Shown here: piece after piece, positions 3,211-46,727 of the stretch
How the letters are laid out: every line of letters begins with the position of its first letter
Numbering within the stretch: the first letter of the stretch is position 1
Virus record (IMG/VR): IMGVR_UViG_3300025886_000046
Span: 1-46,935 of that record
DNA length: 46,935 nucleotides
Reading direction: 5' to 3' (one strand)
Source of the DNA: a virus
Translations under genes and position numbers: made by a program
Notes under the pieces: model-generated
Databases searched by the model: none
The model's input: the letters and a program-made list of their open reading frames with translations, nothing else
Told to the model about the DNA's origin: nothing

Positions 3211-4269
3211 TTATATAGTAAAATCATTAAGATTATCTATATTTCTAGATATGTTAATTGCACCACAAGATGGATAAGGGTTTGAAGATGCAAAATCATT
3301 TATAACAATTCTTTTAGAATGTGCTAATCCCATTATTAATTCATTATAGGGAATACCTTTTTCTTTTAATTCTTTTATAGTAGTATTTAAATATTTTTTA
3401 GGTCTACTAGTAGTAATTATTATTTCTGTTTTATTTTCTGTATGGAGTTTTTGTAACCATTTAATATTATTTACTAAAGGTTTGCTATTTCCTATATAAG
3501 GAGGAAATTTATAAGATGTATTTTCTACTAAAGTTCCATCTAAGTCTATAAATAAAGTATTATATTGGGATTTGTATTTATTCCAATCTTCTATTGTCCC
3601 CCAATCTTTATAATTACTACAGACATTACCATAAAATATTTTGTTTTTTAATATTAAATCAAATATAATATTACTTATATAACATTCATCTTCAATATCC
3701 TCCATTTTTTCAAAACTATCAATAAAATCTGATGTTGAATTGAAACAATATCCACCTATAGAAAATGTTGAGCTAATAACTTGTTTTTCTACAATATTAG
3801 AAATAATATTATTTTCATCTATTTTTAAATAACTTTTATTACTAGGATTAATATTACCTGTATTATTTAAATCATAATAACATACTTGATTATCAGTAGT
3901 GGTTAGTTCACATTTAAAATAATTATCAGAATCTTTAACCATTATAAAACCTTCTATATTTTCTTTTTTAATTGCTTCATAAACAGTTTCGGATTGAGAT
4001 TTTGTATTATTTTTTAAATATACAATTTTAGATTTATTTAATAAATTTAAATCTGTTAATTCTTCTTTAAATCCTTGTTCAAACTTAAACTTAGTTTGGT
4101 GTTCTTTAAGTGCTACAAAATATATATTATCAAAAAATTCTAAATTTATTCCTTTAATACTTTCTAAAACCATAAAAAGATTGCTTTTTGGGTGAGTAAG
4201 CATCCATTTCGGTCTAGTATTAGGAAATCTACTTGATTTTCCTGCTATAGGTACTATTAAATTTTTCAT
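3211..4269 (-). CDS. Nucleotidyltransferase-HAD phosphatase fusion
   Basis: The product is 352 residues in two parts. Residues about 1-240 are a sugar/headgroup nucleotidyltransferase: LIVPIAGKSSRFP near the N-terminus followed by RPKWML (GxxSRF...PK), MVKDSDNYF and a closing WGTIEDWNKYK. Residues about 240-352 are a HAD-type domain with LFIDLDGTLVE (nucleophile DLD), TTSRP (motif II) and INDFAS (ND motif). The protein probably activates a phosphorylated sugar or alcohol to an NDP form, with an attached phosphatase. The gene overlaps the kinase upstream by 41 bases, so the two are likely coupled. The exact substrate cannot be read. Confidence 0.75.
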   Translation of the reverse strand: MKNLIVPIAGKSSRFPNTRPKWMLTHPKSNLFMVLESIKGINLEFFDNIYFVALKEHQTKFKFEQGFKEELTDLNLLNKSKIVYLKNNTKSQSETVYEAIKKENIEGFIMVKDSDNYFKCELTTTDNQVCYYDLNNTGNINPSNKSYLKIDENNIISNIVEKQVISSTFSIGGYCFNSTSDFIDSFEKMEDIEDECYISNIIFDLILKNKIFYGNVCSNYKDWGTIEDWNKYKSQYNTLFIDLDGTLVENTSYKFPPYIGNSKPLVNNIKWLQKLHTENKTEIIITTSRPKKYLNTTIKELKEKGIPYNELIMGLAHSKRIVINDFASSNPYPSCGAINISRNIDNLNDFTI

Positions 4270-9460: not shown

Positions 9461-12400
9461 TTATACTTGAACGAATGAATTATCAGGATTAAAGTAAATG
9501 GTCATATCTCCATTATCAGTACCTTTACTATATCCTATTATTCTTACGATATCTCCTGTTCCCGTTGGTCTGGTTGCGGTAACACCTCCAAGTGAAGTTG
9601 ATACATATACTAACTTTCCTTCTGTAATATTAGGGAAGTTAGCGGTACATATATAACCACGTATTAATATTCCATCATTTGGAATACTAGACCCTAATGC
9701 CATTGCTAGCATACCTTGTGAAGAACTATTTGAGTCTGCATCAGCCAAAGCCCAAGTCCCAACAGTTGTTAAATATAAAAGATCTCCAATTTGAACACTT
9801 ACAGCACCACTAGTTTCATTATATAATATTTCACCACTATAATCTTCATCACCAATACCATCCTGGTTATATTCAATACCTCCTGCATTTGCAAAAGATA
9901 ATACTGCTCCATCAAATGTTAAATTAGCTTCACCATTTACATTAGTTCCACCAGTAGCTGTTATTATTCTATTATTAGTATTACCAGTTATACCTAAAGT
10001 TGATCCTGTCGGGCCTTGTGGACCCGCTGTATTACTTCCAGGACCTGTTGGACCTTGTGGTCCTGCAGTGTTTGAACCTGGTCCTGTTGGACCTTGTGGT
10101 CCTGCAGTGTTTGAACCTGGTCCTGTTGGACCTTGTGGACCAGCTGCATTACTACCTGGACCTGTTGGACCTTGAGGTCCTGCAGTGTTTGAACCTGGTC
10201 CTGTTGGACCTTGTGGTCCTGCTACATTACTATTTGAACCTGGTGTACCTGTTGGACCCTGAGGACCTGCTACATTCGAACTTGATCCTGTCGGGCCTTG
10301 TGGACCCGCTGTATTACTTCCAGGACCTGTTGGACCTTGAGGTCCTGCAGTGTTTGAACCTGGTCCTGTTGGACCCTGAGGACCAGCTGTATTACTTCCA
10401 GGACCTGTTGGACCCTGAGGACCTACAGCATTTGAACCAGGACCTGTTGGACCCTGAGGACCTACAGCATTTGAACCAGGACCTGTTGGACCTTGAGGAC
10501 CTACAGCATTTGAACCAGGACCTGTTGGACCTTGAGGACCTACTTGGTTACTTCCTGGACCTGTTGGACCTTGTGGTCCTACCTGATTAGAACCAGGACC
10601 TGTTGGACCCTGAGGTCCTACCTGATTTGAACCTGGTCCTGTTGGACCCTGAGGTCCTACTTGGTTACTACCTGGTCCTGTTGGACCTTGAGGTCCTACT
10701 ACATTTGAACCTGGTCCTGTAGGACCTTGTGGACCTACTACATTTGAACCTGGTCCTGTTGGACCCTGAGGACCAACCACGTTACTTCCAGGACCTGTAG
10801 GACCTTGTGGACCTACGACGTTTGAGCCTGGACCTGTTGGACCTTGTGGTCCTGCTACATTACTATTTGAACCTGGTGTTCCTGTTGGACCTTGTGGACC
10901 AACAACATTACTTCCAGGACCTGTAGGACCCTGAGGACCTACTACGTTTGAACCTGGGCCTGTTGGACCTTGAGGTCCTACTACGTTACTACCCGGACCT
11001 GTTGGACCTTGAGGACCTGCTACATTACTATTTGAACCTGGTGTTCCTGTAGGACCCTGTGGACCTACTACATTACTTCCTGGTCCTGTTGGACCTTGTG
11101 GACCAACAACATTACTTCCAGGACCTGTAGGACCCTGAGGGCCTACTACATTACTTCCTGGTCCTGTAGGACCTTGTGGACCTGCTACATTACTATTTGA
11201 ACCTGGTGTACCTGTTGGACCTTGAGGTCCTACTACATTTGAACCTGGTCCTGTTGGACCTTGTGGACCTACTACGTTACTACCTGGGCCTGTTGGACCC
11301 TGAGGTCCTACTACATTTGATCCAGGTCCTGTTGGACCCTGAGGACCAACAACATTACTTCCTGGTCCTGTAGGACCTTGTGGACCTACTACATTTGAAG
11401 AAGATCCTGTTGTACCTTGTCCACCTTGTGGACCCACAATATTAGAACCTGGTCCTGTTGGACCTTGAGGTCCTACTACATTACTACCTGGACCTGTTGG
11501 ACCTTGAGGTCCTACTACGTTACTACCTGGACCTGTTGGACCTTGTGGACCAACTACATTACTACTTGATCCTGTGGTACCTTGTCCACCTTGTGGACCT
11601 ACTACGTTACTGCCTGGTCCTGTGGAACCTTGTGGTCCTACTACGTTTGAGCCTGGGCCTGTTGGACCCTGAGGTCCTACTACATTTGATCCAGGTCCTG
11701 TTGGACCTTGTGGACCTACTACATTTGAAGCAGTACCTGTTGTACCTTGTGTTCCTGTAGGACCCTGTGGACCAACTACATTTGAAGAAGCACCTGTTGT
11801 ACCTTGAGGTCCTACTACATTTGATGCAGCACCTGTTATACCTTGTCCACCTTGTATACCTGTTAAACCTTGTCCACCTTGAACTCCTTGTCCACCTTGA
11901 ACACCCTGTATTCCTTGAATACCTTGTCCACCTGTGGTACCTTGTCCACCTTGTACTCCTTGTATTCCTTGGATACCTTGTCCACCTTGTACTCCTTGTA
12001 CACCTTGTGGGCCTGTATCACCAACATCACCTGTTCTAGCAAATGTAAGAATACAATCTTCTCCATTTGAAAAGGGTGCGTTAGAACTAGATTCTATACC
12101 AGCTACAGATATTGTAAAGTATCCATTATTTTCTGTTAAGCTTGATATTGTAAATATTATAAATTGACCAGCGTCTGTTTTGTTACTTACTCTAACATGA
12201 CCTTTTATAGTTGAGGTTGAATCATCAATTGTTCTCATGAATGCCTCTATATTGACACCATTAGCATCTACATCATCAACTCTTAAAGTTGTAGAAGAAG
12301 GTTGGGCCAATATATTATTTAACCCAAAGTTACCACTACCTGGATCACCTGATGTAGCTGAATTAAAATTATATTCAAAAGTAGCTCCACCAAAATTACC

Positions 12401-14839
12401 TGTTGTACCTTGTGTACCTACATTACCTTGAACCCCTTGGATTCCTTGTCCACCTTGTACACCTTGTATACCTTGTATACCTTGTCCACCTATAGTACCT
12501 TGTCCTCCTTGTACTCCTTGAATACCTTGAACACCTTGTCCACCTTGAACACCTTGAATACCAGTTGGACCTTGTGTACCTGTAGTACCTTGTGTTCCAT
12601 TTGTACCTTGAGGTCCTACTACATTTGAAGCCGTACCTGTTGTACCTTGTCCACCTTGTGGTCCTACTACATTTGAATTCGCTCCAGTAGTACCTTGTCC
12701 ACCTTGTGGACCTACTACATTTGAAGCAGTACCTGTTGTACCTTGTCCACCTTGAGGTCCTGCTACATTTGAAGCATTACCTGTTAAACCTTGTCCTCCT
12801 TGTACTCCTTGTATTCCTTGAACACCCTGTCCACCTTGTGGTCCTACTACGTTTGAAGCATTACCTGTTAAACCTTGTCCTCCTTGTAAACCTTGTCCAC
12901 CTTGTACACCTTGAACACCTTGAATACCTTGTATTCCTTGAACACCTTGAGCACCTTGAGGTCCTGTTATTGCTATTTGTGGTATACTCCAATAATAATT
13001 TAAACCATCATAATAAAAACCTAATACATCTACTCCACCTGAAACTGTAGTAGTAGTATATGTAGCGCCTCCAATTACAATAGAACTTCCTGGTAATGAT
13101 AAAGTGTGTGAAGTTCCTACTCCTTGTTTAACTAATATTGTTCCTGTATCACCTGTATTAGCATTTGTTATAGATAATGTTCTATTACCGCCTAATGTTA
13201 TTTTAGAGTTTGAACCATCATTTAAATTCCATACTACTGTAGCAGCATCTGTTAATGTTTGTTGTTCAATTTGAAGATTTCCATCTAAAAATGCTGTACT
13301 ACCATCAAATGTAAAATTAGCTTCTGCTGTAACATTAACCCCATCTACATCTGTAATAATTCTATTTGCTCCAGATGAATTAATTGATAGTGCTCCTGTG
13401 GTACCTTGTCCACCTTGTACACCTTGTCCACCTGTGGTACCTTGACCTCCTTGTACTCCTTGAATACCTTGAACTCCTTGTCCACCTGTGGTACCTTGAC
13501 CTCCTTGTACTCCTTGAATACCTTGAACTCCTTGTCCACCTGTTGTACCTTGTCCACCTGTTGTACCTTGACCTCCTTGTACTCCTTGAATACCTTGAAC
13601 TCCTTGTCCACCTGTTGTACCTTGTCCACCTGTTGTACCTTGTCCACCTGTAGTTCCTTGTCCTCCTTGTACTCCTTGTGCACCTGTTGTACCTTGTGCT
13701 CCAGTTGCACCTTGTGCTCCTAAATCTCCTATAATTTCTATAGCACCAAAAGTTTCATCTCCATTTCCTACATTATTCCAACCACTTTTATCTATATGAA
13801 TAATTCCTAATTCTTTCCAAGTAGTATTGTCTGTAAGACTAACAACATAAAAACTATCAAAATATTGTTGGTTAGCTCTAGCTCTAAATGTAAAAATAGA
13901 ACCTGTTGGGTTAGTTGAATCTACAAGTGTATCTAAAATGGGACCAACTCCTAATCCATCTGCATCTGTATTACTGATATAAACTTCAGATGCTGATGCA
14001 GGGTCGGCAGCGTTAAATCTAAAATTACCTGAACCTGGGTCTGCTGATGTTGTAGATGTGGAATAATTCCAAGCAGCCCCAAATGTAGAAACACCTGTGG
14101 TACCTTGACCTCCTTGTACTCCTTGAATACCTTGAACTCCTTGTCCACCTGTTGTACCTTGTCCACCTGTAGTTCCTTGTCCTCCTTGTACTCCTTGAAC
14201 ACCTGTAGTTCCTTGTCCTCCTTGTATACCTTGAACTCCTTGAACTCCTTGTCCACCTGTAATTCCTTGAACTCCTTGTATTCCTTGTACACCTTGAATA
14301 CCTTGAGCACCTTGAGGTCCTGAGTCTTTATCTACCCAATTCCATCCACCAGGAGTGGAGGAAATTACTTGTCCTGCTGAACCTGTAGAATTTACTGTTG
14401 AATCTCTTGAGATTGCTCCTTTTAGCCCTATTACGGGGTTGTTAAAAGTACCGTGTACGAATAAAGACTCGTGTAAAGAATCTGAGCCTCCAGAAATAGA
14501 AACTCCCGGGGCTTGTATATTTAATGATGTATTATTTTTTAATATTGGGGTATCAACCTTAGTTGTGAAGTTTACACTAGAACCAGTTACAGGATTATTA
14601 AGGGATATGTGAGATCCATCAACAGAATTTCCTATTTGTACTTTAGAATTAGATGAATAAACTTGAGGTTTGTTACCTAAAGAATTAAGAGTAAAACCTG
14701 AGTTTGCATCTTCTCCATGGGCTATGAATTCGTCTCCATAGAAATTTGAGTTAATACTACCTGATACATCCCCTTGTACCGTGACTGAGTTTAAGTTAGC
14801 ATCCGATCCACTAACTACTATTTTTTTCCAATTTGGCAT
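9461..14839 (-). CDS. Giant collagen-like tail fibre protein
   Basis: The product is 1792 residues. The N-terminus, [19 protein letters not shown], matches that of the 16097-17746 protein and may be a shared attachment peptide. Gly-X-Y blocks lie at about residues 171-248, 373-481, 626-813 and 938-1611, separated by three globular inserts (about 248-373, 483-625, 815-938). The first and third inserts are related to each other (both carry DPGSGNF and a DADG/DANG motif). The early blocks use [12 protein letters not shown] triplets; the last block has about 40 [11 protein letters not shown] units. A compact C-terminal domain (about 1613-1792) ends in SFVQV. It should be a trimeric fibre. The gene follows a late motif at 14900-14913. 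Confidence 0.9.
10005..11800 (-). repeat. 39-bp tandem repeat array coding for [13 protein letters not shown]
   Basis: About 40 tandem units of 13 codons lie inside the collagen-like gene. Each unit has three Gly-X-Y triplets plus a four-residue break (SN followed by VV, QV, AV, TA or AA). Variant breaks are clustered (runs of VV, then four QV, three AV, then TA), as expected from local duplication. [16 protein letters not shown] and [10 protein letters not shown] variants interrupt the array. Codon-level differences remain between copies. Confidence 0.9.
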
Positions 14840-45109: not shown

Positions 45110-46039
45110 TTAAACTTGCCCACCATCTGTAATGGTCCAACCTTTATCATTAACTAGTATATTTTTAGCAGTTAATCCTGCTGCTGTAAATGTTGAATTT
45201 CCAAAACTAATTGTTAAATTATTTTGTAATGCTGCTAAGTCTATAACCCAACCATTATATAGAGTATCTAGTAAATTATAAGTAATAGCACCTAATGCAC
45301 CAGTGTTCCCCATAAATCCTTCACCAGATATACCTGTTAATGAATTTAGTTGCCATAAATTTAAGGGTTGTTGGAATGCATTTGCATACCTAAACATACC
45401 TCTCATTTCTGTTACATTACGTACATCCCAATTGTTAAGGGGTTGATTAAATAATTCTGCAAACCTAAACATATTACTCATATTAGTCACATTACTAACA
45501 TCCCAATTTGAAATATCACTATTAAATGTTGTTTTATTAGAAAATAAACTACTCATATCCGTTATGGCCGTAGTATTCCAAGTATTAATTCCTCCGTATG
45601 TAGCAAGAGCAGCTGCATTATCTGAAATCCATAAATCAACAGCGGTTTGTAGTTCTGCTGTTGTAAAAAATGAGTATATTGATGGGGAAAGGTTTAAAGT
45701 CATCCCACCTGTAGCTCTTAAAAATGAAGAACTTATGGCTATATCAGCAGTTGGAGTAAAAGTATATGAACCAACTCCTTTTGGAACAACGACAGAAGAT
45801 ACATACGAAGAAGTAACTAAAGAATTTTCATTAATTTTATCAAACCCAGAATATAAACCTAAGGCATTTGTAGGCTTACCACTAAATGAACCCGTGCTAT
45901 TGTCAGCAGTTTCTACAGTAAAATAAGCGGTTCCAGTGCTAGTATTATTAGTAATAGAAAAAACATAACTCTCTCCAGCAGTTAATCCTTCTATTGGAGT
46001 GTTTGCTCTATTTAATTGTTTTGCAGTATAGGATGCCAT
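45110..46039 (-). CDS. BspA/DUF285-type repeat protein, probable appendage
   Basis: The product is 309 residues. The N-terminal 120 residues (MASYTAKQLNRANTPIEGLT..., then YFTVETADNSTGSF) form a beta-domain of a type I associate with marine phage structural proteins. Residues about 150-245 carry three copies of the BspA/DUF285 repeat: ITDMSSLF...FNSDISNWDVSNVTNMSNMF, FNQPLNNWDVRNVTEMRGMF, and a diverged third. BspA repeats mediate protein or surface binding in bacteria. It follows a late motif at 46048-46061 and has no Shine-Dalgarno sequence, so it is probably a late virion protein for attachment. Confidence 0.75.
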   Translation of the reverse strand: MASYTAKQLNRANTPIEGLTAGESYVFSITNNTSTGTAYFTVETADNSTGSFSGKPTNALGLYSGFDKINENSLVTSSYVSSVVVPKGVGSYTFTPTADIAISSSFLRATGGMTLNLSPSIYSFFTTAELQTAVDLWISDNAAALATYGGINTWNTTAITDMSSLFSNKTTFNSDISNWDVSNVTNMSNMFRFAELFNQPLNNWDVRNVTEMRGMFRYANAFQQPLNLWQLNSLTGISGEGFMGNTGALGAITYNLLDTLYNGWVIDLAALQNNLTISFGNSTFTAAGLTAKNILVNDKGWTITDGGQV

Positions 46040-46152: not shown

Positions 46153-46181
46153 GTGGACCCTTTGATTGGGGTTCGTATATT
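46153..46181 (+). promoter_or_regulatory. Early-type promoter P6 for the tRNA-like gene
   Basis: TTCG-TATATT on the plus strand (-10 at 46176-46181), the same -10 context as P1, P2, P4 and P5, with a weak -35 (GTGGAC or TGGACC) and a hairpin at 46155-46174 just upstream. The expected start point is a few bases before the tRNA-like gene. Confidence 0.5.
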
Positions 46182-46191
46182 GATGTAAATG

Positions 46192-46304
46192 AAAAGGGTA
46201 GAGCAGTAGGTAGCTCGCCTTGGCTTAACCACAAGCATAATATAATACGATCGTGAAAAGTAAGTGGGTCAAGGAGGTCGTGGGTTCGAGTCCCACCCCT
46301 TATG
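46192..46304 (+). tRNA. tRNA-like gene with about 40 extra bases in the anticodon loop
   Basis: All standard arms can be drawn. Acceptor 46192-46198 pairs with 46297-46303 (six of seven; A-A mismatch at pair 2-71). T46199 and A46200 follow, then the D stem GAGC/GCTC with loop AGTAGGTA. The anticodon stem is CCTTG (46218-46222) with CAAGG (46270-46274), followed by variable bases AGGTC and the T arm GTGGG-TTCGAGT-CCCAC, then discriminator G46304. No CCA is encoded. The anticodon loop is 47 bases (46223-46269) instead of 7. It may be an intron-containing, interrupted or repurposed tRNA. The anticodon cannot be assigned. Confidence 0.6.
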
Positions 46305-46319
46305 CTAAATTAGAGATAT

Positions 46320-46727
46320 ATGGAATTAATTTATTTTATTAGTGGGATATTAACCGTTGGGGTAGTATATGGGGTTGTACTATTTCAAAAAATAAAACTT
46401 TCACATACGGAATTACTGGGAACATCACAATCATTATTGAATATCTCATCTATTAGAAGTGCTGAGTTTGAAGAGCAATTGGGGGATCTGAAAATATTAA
46501 TAGTTGATATTCAGTCGAGTATGGAGAAAGATCAGTATAAGAGTCTGAGTGCTGTAAATAAGAGAATTAAGGAACTAGAAGGGTTGACTAGTTCAATAAA
46601 TAAGAGGATGGGGGAGTCTAATAAAGTTTTCAATAAAAATATTACGGATACATTGACACAAATAGCGAGTATAAGAAATAATATAAAGGCCTTGAGCCAA
46701 GACCCTAATATGTCAAGCAAGTACTAA
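46320..46727 (+). CDS. Membrane-anchored coiled-coil hypothetical protein
   Basis: The product is 135 residues. Residues 1-24 (MELIYFISGILTVGVVYGVV...) are one N-terminal membrane helix; residues about 30-125 are a charged helical region with heptad-like spacing (AVNKRIKELEGLTSSINKRM). It is the only plus-strand protein gene I accept here. It starts 15 bases after the tRNA-like gene and is probably co-transcribed with it from P6. Its function is unknown. A hairpin at 46812-46833 lies 85 bases beyond its stop codon. Confidence 0.75.
   Translation: MELIYFISGILTVGVVYGVVLFQKIKLSHTELLGTSQSLLNISSIRSAEFEEQLGDLKILIVDIQSSMEKDQYKSLSAVNKRIKELEGLTSSINKRMGESNKVFNKNITDTLTQIASIRNNIKALSQDPNMSSKY

Follow-up and report, generated by a model that had tools for sequence, protein, structure and literature searches.

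The presence of transfer RNA (tRNA) genes in phages is commonly attributed to codon supply or to evasion of defenses that cut tRNAs. Noncoding RNAs that mimic tRNAs are already known as a class. In the bacterial Y RNAs (YrlA), partners of the Ro60 protein, a tRNA-like module is combined with an extra conserved stem; in transfer-messenger RNA (tmRNA), the anticodon part of a tRNA-like body is replaced by another domain; and in engineered tRNA scaffolds, a foreign RNA arm is carried by the tRNA fold. The element described here, located at positions 46192 to 46304 of the virus record IMGVR_UViG_3300025886_000046, has the architecture of these scaffolds, with a structured arm in place of the anticodon loop. 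All 46,935 bases of that record, hereafter the window, were analyzed. The element belongs to a real, conserved family of tRNA-like noncoding RNAs of uncultured phages, undescribed in the sources searched. Its members are probably phage noncoding RNAs built on a tRNA scaffold, in which a conserved recognition arm replaces the anticodon.

Comparison with known systems

With ordinary tRNAs, including those of phages (Rfam accession number RF00005), the element shares the cloverleaf, the D and T loops, the bases that make tertiary contacts, and the location in tRNA gene groups or between genes. In contrast to them, it has no 7-base anticodon loop, carries C at position 33, has an open 1:72 or 2:71 pair, and contains a structured insert. 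Compared to YrlA (RF02553), it has the entire tRNA body, and its extra arm takes the place of the anticodon loop. Unlike tmRNA, it has a complete D stem; ARAGORN reported no tmRNA in the window or the loci scanned, where no search for a tag reading frame was made by hand. Engineered scaffolds are exemplified by aptamer-tagged tRNAs (PubMed Central [PMC] article PMC7590224), whereas the element is natural and conserved in viruses.

Archaeal and eukaryal tRNA introns and group I introns are similarly inserted into the anticodon loop, but the insert of the element pairs with and extends the anticodon stem and shows no splice geometry by inspection. Group I introns are far larger than this insert, and Rfam gave no group I intron match in the window stretch or in a related locus, L048. 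Theta ribozymes, which are small and similar to the ribozyme of hepatitis delta virus, adjoin tRNAs in gut phages (PMC10879173) and resemble the element in being small structured RNAs tied to phage tRNA genes; the insert of the element, in contrast, lies inside the tRNA. In the same two stretches, a search of Rfam 15 with expected values (E) of up to 10 returned no family above its gathering threshold except tRNA. Titles and abstract beginnings of the open-license PMC literature contained, among the matches listed, no description of such an RNA. While tRNA mimics are known, the present design was not found described.

Detection of the element

An Infernal comparison of the window stretch with RF00005 assigns a tRNA fold to positions 46192 to 46304 of the plus strand with 39.5 bits (gathering threshold, 29) and an E of 6.1e-07 in a 501-base search; in a tRNA search of the whole record, the E was 1.3e-8. 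These are exactly the bounds of the tRNA-like gene with a 47-base anticodon loop that had been proposed in a first-pass annotation made from the letters of the sequence, so the covariance-model folding that it had suggested as a check came out in its favor. The alignment contains that 47-base loop and a single non-standard acceptor pair, A2.A71, which is the one mismatch noted in the annotation, and positions 33 to 36 indeed read C-T-T-A.

ARAGORN reported no tRNA in the window, and a default Rfam scan of the whole window listed nothing, so that ordinary annotation can miss the element. ARAGORN likewise listed no such element in any locus scanned, default Rfam scans also missed it in L006 and L007, and a more sensitive tRNA search recovered it in 5 of the 16 element-bearing records given to it. 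With the family covariance model R1, the window element scores 115.9 bits, the window being among the sequences from which R1 was built.

Size and distribution of the family

Pattern scans of IMG/VR, combined with the covariance model, yielded 43 loci on 41 virus records, with 32 distinct aligned rows. The members come in two size forms, a short one of 111 to 114 nucleotides and a long one of 140 to 144 nucleotides with an additional hairpin. A pattern consisting of the D-arm word, a gap longer than in a normal tRNA, and the T-arm word matched 4 records, and all 4 had a homologous insert. A pattern for the 5' half that did not include the tip of the arm matched 32 loci, every one of which had the tip, CGATCGT[A/G]AAAAG. 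The tip alone (16 bases) matched 24 loci, 19 of them representing the element and 5 not; the D-loop and T-loop words, which had not been asked for, were present in all 19. Two scans combined the tip with the T arm: one gave 29 loci, all of them elements, and added the full members L066 and L068 and the partial member L067, and the other gave 47 loci, 40 of them elements, and added L147 and L148. The matches judged not to be the element were L025, L030, L037, L039, L043, and L140 to L146 (L142 with 14.0 bits). The column counts given below, including those of some invariant insert columns, are partly shaped by the search patterns; the cleanest tests are the 32 tip-free loci for the tip and the 19 tip-only loci for the tRNA loops.

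Identical elements were collapsed to 29, of which L059, cut at a contig edge, was excluded from alignment A1. The partial L067 was included in alignment A2 and excluded from the 5'-side counts. L006 and L040 are on the same record, as are L007 and L026.

An R1 scan of 20 whole records (7.7 to 190 kb) found the element in 14, in a single copy each, the remaining matches being normal-length tRNAs at about 42 to 45 bits. The Flavobacterium phage immuto and the Microcystis phage Mel-JY01 lacked the element in R1 scans. In blastn searches of annotated GenBank phages with two queries, the best 20 of 115 and the best 20 of 30 matches were only 25- to 35-base pieces of the tRNA 3' part, and no record covered 80% of either query. 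Exact-pattern scans of bacterial genome contigs, which would miss diverged copies, gave 0 matches to the core pattern and 2 to the 5' pattern, both without the element according to the model.

Conserved fold

The RNA of the window consists of the following parts, all on the plus strand:

46192..46304, plus strand: whole tRNA-like RNA, 113 nucleotides, short form; the 3' CCA is not encoded (scored by RF00005 and R1 as given above)
46192..46198, plus strand: 5' strand of the acceptor stem, pairing with 46297-46303, with the A2.A71 mismatch (Infernal and family alignment)
46201..46216, plus strand: D arm, GAGC-AGTAGGTA-GCTC (Infernal; 100% of the D-stem cells paired, double changes in 3 of 4 pairs)
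46218..46224, plus strand: 5' strand of the anticodon stem, lengthened to 7 pairs, pairing with 46268-46274 (100% of cells paired, double changes in 5 of 7 pairs)
46225..46228, plus strand: UUAA bulge, nearly invariant (U in 31/31, U in 29/31, A in 31/31, A in 31/31), with two further bases in L003
46229..46232, plus strand: 5' strand of insert helix P2, CCAC, pairing with GTGG at 46264-46267 (A2 pair counts)
46235..46236, plus strand: 5' strand of insert helix P3, GC, pairing with GT at 46260-46261 (RNAalifold; nearly invariant, covariation says little)
46238..46259, plus strand: apical conserved region, TAATA..CGATCGTGAAAA, with the self-complementary CGATCG at 46248-46253 (CGAUCGU and AAAAG invariant in the 32 distinct rows)
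46280..46296, plus strand: T arm, GTGGG-TTCGAGT-CCCAC (Infernal; 100% of the T-stem cells paired, double changes in 3 of 5 pairs)

Counted on A2 with the structure given, 93.6% of the pair cells are paired, and 23 of the 36 pairs show double changes. The number of double-change cells is 158, compared to 46.6 ± 6.3 after shuffling, and none of the 500 shuffles reached it. When the partners were slid by 1 to 3 columns, the fraction of paired cells fell to 52.4% or less. The MAFFT alignment of 28 sequences gives a covariation picture similar to that of A2. From this alignment, RNAalifold, with no structure given, predicted the cloverleaf minus the two outermost acceptor pairs, the 7-pair anticodon stem, P2, and P3, with compensatory changes in 17 of 26 pairs.

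In the acceptor stem, the inner five pairs are invariant or double-changing in the 28 sequences, with one unpaired cell (3:144), and the two outermost pairs are unpaired in 20 and 8 of them, respectively. The P2 pairs 41:110 and 42:109 (A2 numbering) have 14 double-change sequences each and none unpaired; 40:111 is invariant, and the fourth pair of CCAC/GTGG is kept in just 5 of the 31 sequences. The positions of the tRNA tertiary contacts (U8, A14, G15, G18, G19, A21, C48, and the T-loop UUCGA) are invariant. The insert does form a hairpin arm, as had been suggested in the first-pass annotation, but not as a simple extension of the anticodon helix by five pairs: two contiguous pairs (G32.U and C33-G) are followed by the 4-base UUAA bulge on the 5' side. 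Beyond the bulge, the arm of the window element continues with CCAC/GTGG, a small internal loop, and GC/GU, all supported by the family alignment except for the fourth CCAC/GTGG pair.

The folding energy of the single window sequence is unremarkable (z of -1.67, with 11 of 200 shuffles as good), and among six relatives the absolute z was under 1 in five, the sixth, L045, reaching -2.69. The evidence for the predicted fold is the covariation and the family, not the single-sequence energy. Chance or decay as the origin of the element is ruled out by the covariation, and so is the decayed tRNA listed among the options of the first-pass annotation. Its option of an RNA that mimics a tRNA, on the other hand, has held up, both the tRNA fold and the insert being under selection in the 41 virus records.

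Conserved tip of the arm

The tip of the arm is among the most conserved parts of the element, and the unpaired bases of the insert (the UUAA-type bulge, AAU(A), CGAUCGU, and AAAAG) show little or no variation. When the arm was cut out and folded, CGAUCG was mostly unpaired in four of six sequences (the window, L045, L048, and L066). Because this hexamer is self-complementary, two copies could form a dimer. In the long form, the loop letters of the extra hairpin, ACGU, are invariant in 19 of 19 sequences. Some long-form members also have, in that hairpin (A2 columns 49-80), AGUA/GAA-like internal-loop letters that, by eye, recall the loop E motif.

An antisense role of the tip was considered and rejected, as nothing conserved was found among 10- to 12-base pieces of its complement in approximately 0.63 Mb of record DNA. 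Outside the elements and L025, L030, and L039, such pieces occurred once each in L002 and L004, with L037 and L043 filtered out.

Absence of a decoding loop

The anticodon loop is 45 to 48 or 74 to 78 nucleotides long, and no member has a 7-base loop. Position 33 is C in 30 of the 31 sequences and U in one. Of 28 sequences, 27 have a non-standard 1:72 or 2:71 pair, and the other, L045, has two G-U pairs. Positions 34 to 36 are UUA in 29 of 31 and UAA in 2. A control panel of 62 ordinary tRNAs consisted of 57 of the 76 tRNAs of two bacterial genomes (those excluded mostly having long variable arms), the Escherichia coli initiators, and phage tRNAs, with 7 of 69 skipped for misread ends. All 62 had U33 and none had a non-standard 2:71 pair; the 1:72 pair was non-standard in 5, of which three were initiators and one or two may be misreadings too. 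The element thus has the cloverleaf, the D and T loops, and the tertiary-contact bases of a decoding tRNA but neither a 7-base loop with U33 nor a closed acceptor end. The RNA is predicted to be unable to decode.

An ochre suppressor tRNA would be consistent with the conserved UUA at positions 34 to 36, but C33, the pairing of the loop ends, and the predominance of TAA as a stop codon, which terminates 28 of the 34 window open reading frames (ORFs) counted, argue against it. Descent from an initiator tRNA is hinted at by A11:U24 in 21 of 28 sequences, by the open 1:72 pair, and by the tRNA-Met(CAT) that L011 and L012 have at this site, with A1.A72. However, body identity does not single out Met(CAT), whose mean best value, with initiators and elongators pooled, was 0.642, compared to 0.651 for Asp and 0.649 for Val(GAC), so this origin is only a lead. 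The first-pass annotation had named a normal tRNA at this site in related phages, together with the absence of any RNA made from the element, as an observation that would speak against its reading. A normal tRNA is what L011 and L012 carry, which agrees in part with that case, but in its body it resembles the element no more than several other tRNAs do.

Genomic surroundings

The baseplate protein of the window has 41.5% identity to that of phage immuto and 42.9% identity to a Mel-JY01 protein, which makes the window a tailed-phage relative. Its host may belong to the Bacteroidota, judging solely by the likeness to immuto.

In 22 of the 41 records (22 of the 43 loci), a queC-like frame ends at most 0.7 kb upstream of the element on the same strand. 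The distance is 5 to 7 bases in 6 loci and reaches its maximum, 672 bases, in L060; a tRNA-Gln(TTG) or tRNA-Ala(TGC) gene is sometimes found between the two. Seven of the loci with no queC match have under 0.8 kb of upstream DNA. As queC is also present in records that lack the element (G001 and W01) and none was detected in the window record, the link is loose. At L041:2859-12452, queC is close to genes for a PTPS-family (QueD-like) protein, a radical-SAM (QueE-like) protein with a weak match below the cut-off, and GTP cyclohydrolase I; by family name, this cluster suggests a 7-deazaguanine pathway. A 266-amino-acid ORF at 11652-12452 of the same locus has no Pfam match and looks, by eye, similar to DpdA or tRNA-guanine transglycosylase.

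Two features adjoin the element in the window:

46172..46181, plus strand: promoter-like word TTCGTATATT, 10 bases upstream of the RNA; in L003, L006, and L007, the word is found 9 bases upstream of the element, and in L035, 6 bases upstream
46320..46727, plus strand: next gene, 135 amino acids, used as a marker for finding the same site elsewhere; no Pfam or PHROG match at an E of 0.001

Six exact copies of TTCGTATATT are present in the window, 4 of which are followed within about 50 bases by an ORF or by the element. Besides the copy at 46172-46181, copies just upstream of genes are at 523, 44601, and 45052 (minus strand). With one mismatch allowed, there are 13 copies versus 7.0 expected by chance, a number reached in 3 of 100 shuffles. 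As this count is only mildly above chance, the word can be regarded as a possible phage promoter element.

The element precedes the gene for the 135-amino-acid protein in the window, L003, L006, and L007. Among 19 loci found by this gene, 2 have the element, 2 have tRNA-Met(CAT), and 15 have neither, according to the model and in the DNA covered. On the record of L002 and L018, the gene is not accompanied by the element, a single copy of which lies elsewhere. Similarly, the site after queC and tRNA-Gln in G001 lacks the element that L053 has in that position, the next gene being alike by eye. Like a tRNA gene, the element is therefore seen to come and go as a single unit. At least six gene contexts were found among 29 loci, and an ORF on the same strand starts 8 to 21 bases after the end of the element in 13 of the 27 loci for which a downstream ORF is listed.

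The tRNA-Met(CAT) genes at the site of the window element (L011:4715-4788 and L012:4914-4987) encode initiator-type phage tRNAs with the A1.A72 mismatch and a GGG/CCC anticodon stem. The ends of several records lie no more than 1 kb downstream of the 135-amino-acid gene: the window (0.2 kb after it), L008, L009, L019, and L021 to L024. This may be the site of a genome end or of a repeat that breaks assembly. On the other side, the element is adjoined by the gene for a 309-amino-acid protein (45110-46039, minus strand) that matches DUF285 with an E of 5.2e-32; DUF285 is described in Pfam as a Mycoplasma protein of unknown function. Elsewhere in the window, the ORF at 3211-4269 (minus strand) shows a weak match, with an E of 0.00052 and below the curated cut-off, to HAD_SAK_2 (the "Swiss Army Knife" RNA repair proteins).

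Alternative explanations

A tRNA with a removable mini-intron, one of the options of the first-pass annotation, could be spliced to a normal tRNA, perhaps one that reads UAA through the UUA found at positions 34 to 36 (UAA in two sequences), and tRNA introns do usually sit in the anticodon loop. This is nevertheless improbable. The bases at the loop ends pair across the insert (32:113 and 33:112 on A2) in all 31 sequences. Apart from C33 being nearly universal before any splicing, the 7-base loops made of the first k plus the last 7-k bases have U33 in just 4 of 31 under any cut tried (L003, L027, L033, and L045). A bulge-helix-bulge was not seen in the arm by inspection, its bulges being on the 5' side of the central helix strands, the reverse of the archaeal geometry. 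The insert-free body gave 0 matches in one pattern scan of viral contigs, which covers the GCTC-type D stem and some anticodon stems only. RtcB was found in none of 27 records, mostly fragments, 20 of which are among the 41 that bear the element; host enzymes lay outside that search. The only T4-type RNA ligase in these 27 was that of Mel-JY01, itself lacking the element. With TAA as the main stop codon of the window, an ochre tRNA would also be harmful. A cis-acting leader that controls the next gene, for which the short distance to the following ORF in 13 of 27 loci and the promoter-like word of the window could be cited, appears hardly more credible, given that the downstream gene varies between contexts and that ordinary phage tRNAs lie equally close to genes, such as the tRNA-Gln of immuto, which ends 11 bases before a coding sequence. 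A relative of the bacterial Y RNAs would embody the same idea of a tRNA-like module with a protein-binding stem, here mimicking a tRNA as a Ro60 partner. The YrlA model, however, reached only 18.6 and 18.2 bits in the L048 stretch, far from its gathering threshold of 69, and was not listed for the window stretch at an E of up to 10. No TROVE/Ro60 gene was found in the same 27 records, in a search that gave the control match in Deinobacterium. Such a relationship is extremely improbable.

The tRNA body, intact down to its tertiary contacts, would suit a decoy or sponge for a host tRNA-acting enzyme, be it a nuclease, a modification enzyme, or a defense toxin, with the body being bound and the arm blocking the anticodon. 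The queC-like frame upstream of the element in 22 of 41 records suggests a 7-deazaguanine link. A tRNA-guanine transglycosylase follows the UGU rule, though, and the tip contains no UGU by inspection. Phage tRNAs have been proposed to evade tRNA-targeting defenses through anticodon-loop mutations (PMC10264068). The decoy for anticodon nucleases that had been suggested in the first-pass annotation is not supported, in that no member presents a normal 7-base anticodon loop, the usual substrate, and a sharply conserved tip would be superfluous for a decoy acting through its body. Such a role therefore seems rather unlikely. About as doubtful, if not slightly more so, is a small catalytic or ligand-binding RNA (a ribozyme or aptamer) whose active site would consist of the invariant unpaired bases, with the tRNA fold serving for stability or processing. 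The short-form insert of 45 to 48 bases contains about twenty unpaired bases that vary little or not at all, a number far above the needs of a helix, and theta ribozymes do occur next to gut-phage tRNAs (PMC10879173). No known ribozyme core was recognized by eye, however, and the Rfam search of the two stretches returned only tRNA above gathering. In broader terms, an undescribed functional RNA core (a ribozyme, an aptamer, or an RNA-docking module), housed by viruses in a complete tRNA where the anticodon would be and acting during infection on the host translation, tRNA, or RNA-processing machinery, can be put forward tentatively; the element would then be a natural tRNA scaffold.

Proposed function

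The noncoding RNA on a tRNA scaffold, with a recognition arm instead of the anticodon, remains the best explanation. The fold, the arm, and its tip are conserved, and the decoding loop is missing. The gene would be transcribed from a promoter just upstream or within the queC/tRNA gene group. Since it has the elbow and the T-acceptor stack of a tRNA, the RNA is probably trimmed by the tRNA-processing enzymes of the host (RNase P, 3' processing, and CCA addition). The arm that replaces the anticodon loop is predicted to consist of 7 pairs, the UUAA bulge, 3 to 4 pairs, an internal loop, and 2 pairs, and to end in the conserved tip CGAUCGUnAAAAGC. This tip most likely docks to a partner, either a protein or, through the self-complementary CGAUCG, another RNA, such as a second copy of itself. 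In its simplest form, the RNA could be an adaptor, with the tRNA chassis providing stability and clean ends and the tip binding something.

Several points weigh against this interpretation. Expression, processing, docking, and the partner are all inferred, docking from nothing but conservation. For L002 and L031, folding of the cut-out arm left CGAUCG about half paired, at its ends, and largely paired, respectively, so that exposure of the tip is not certain; the 10.5 to 12 kcal/mol gained by cofolding two copies in six sequences is a figure obtained without control sequences. A2 was fitted to the same structure that was counted on it, and the pair-type count is weaker on the first (MAFFT) alignment, where 21 of 500 shuffles reach the observed value, compared to 1 of 500 on A2. 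The members look like one virus group, so their sequences are not independent, and the covariation figures, coming from related sequences, are not probabilities.

Implications

If this interpretation is true, the family would represent a tRNA-shaped viral gene that has been selected not to decode and that carries a conserved arm with a directly searchable partner. Given that ARAGORN and default Rfam scans miss the element, similar RNAs may hide among the missed or "odd" tRNAs of viral genomes. With the family model and the 41 records, the question can be put to the test.
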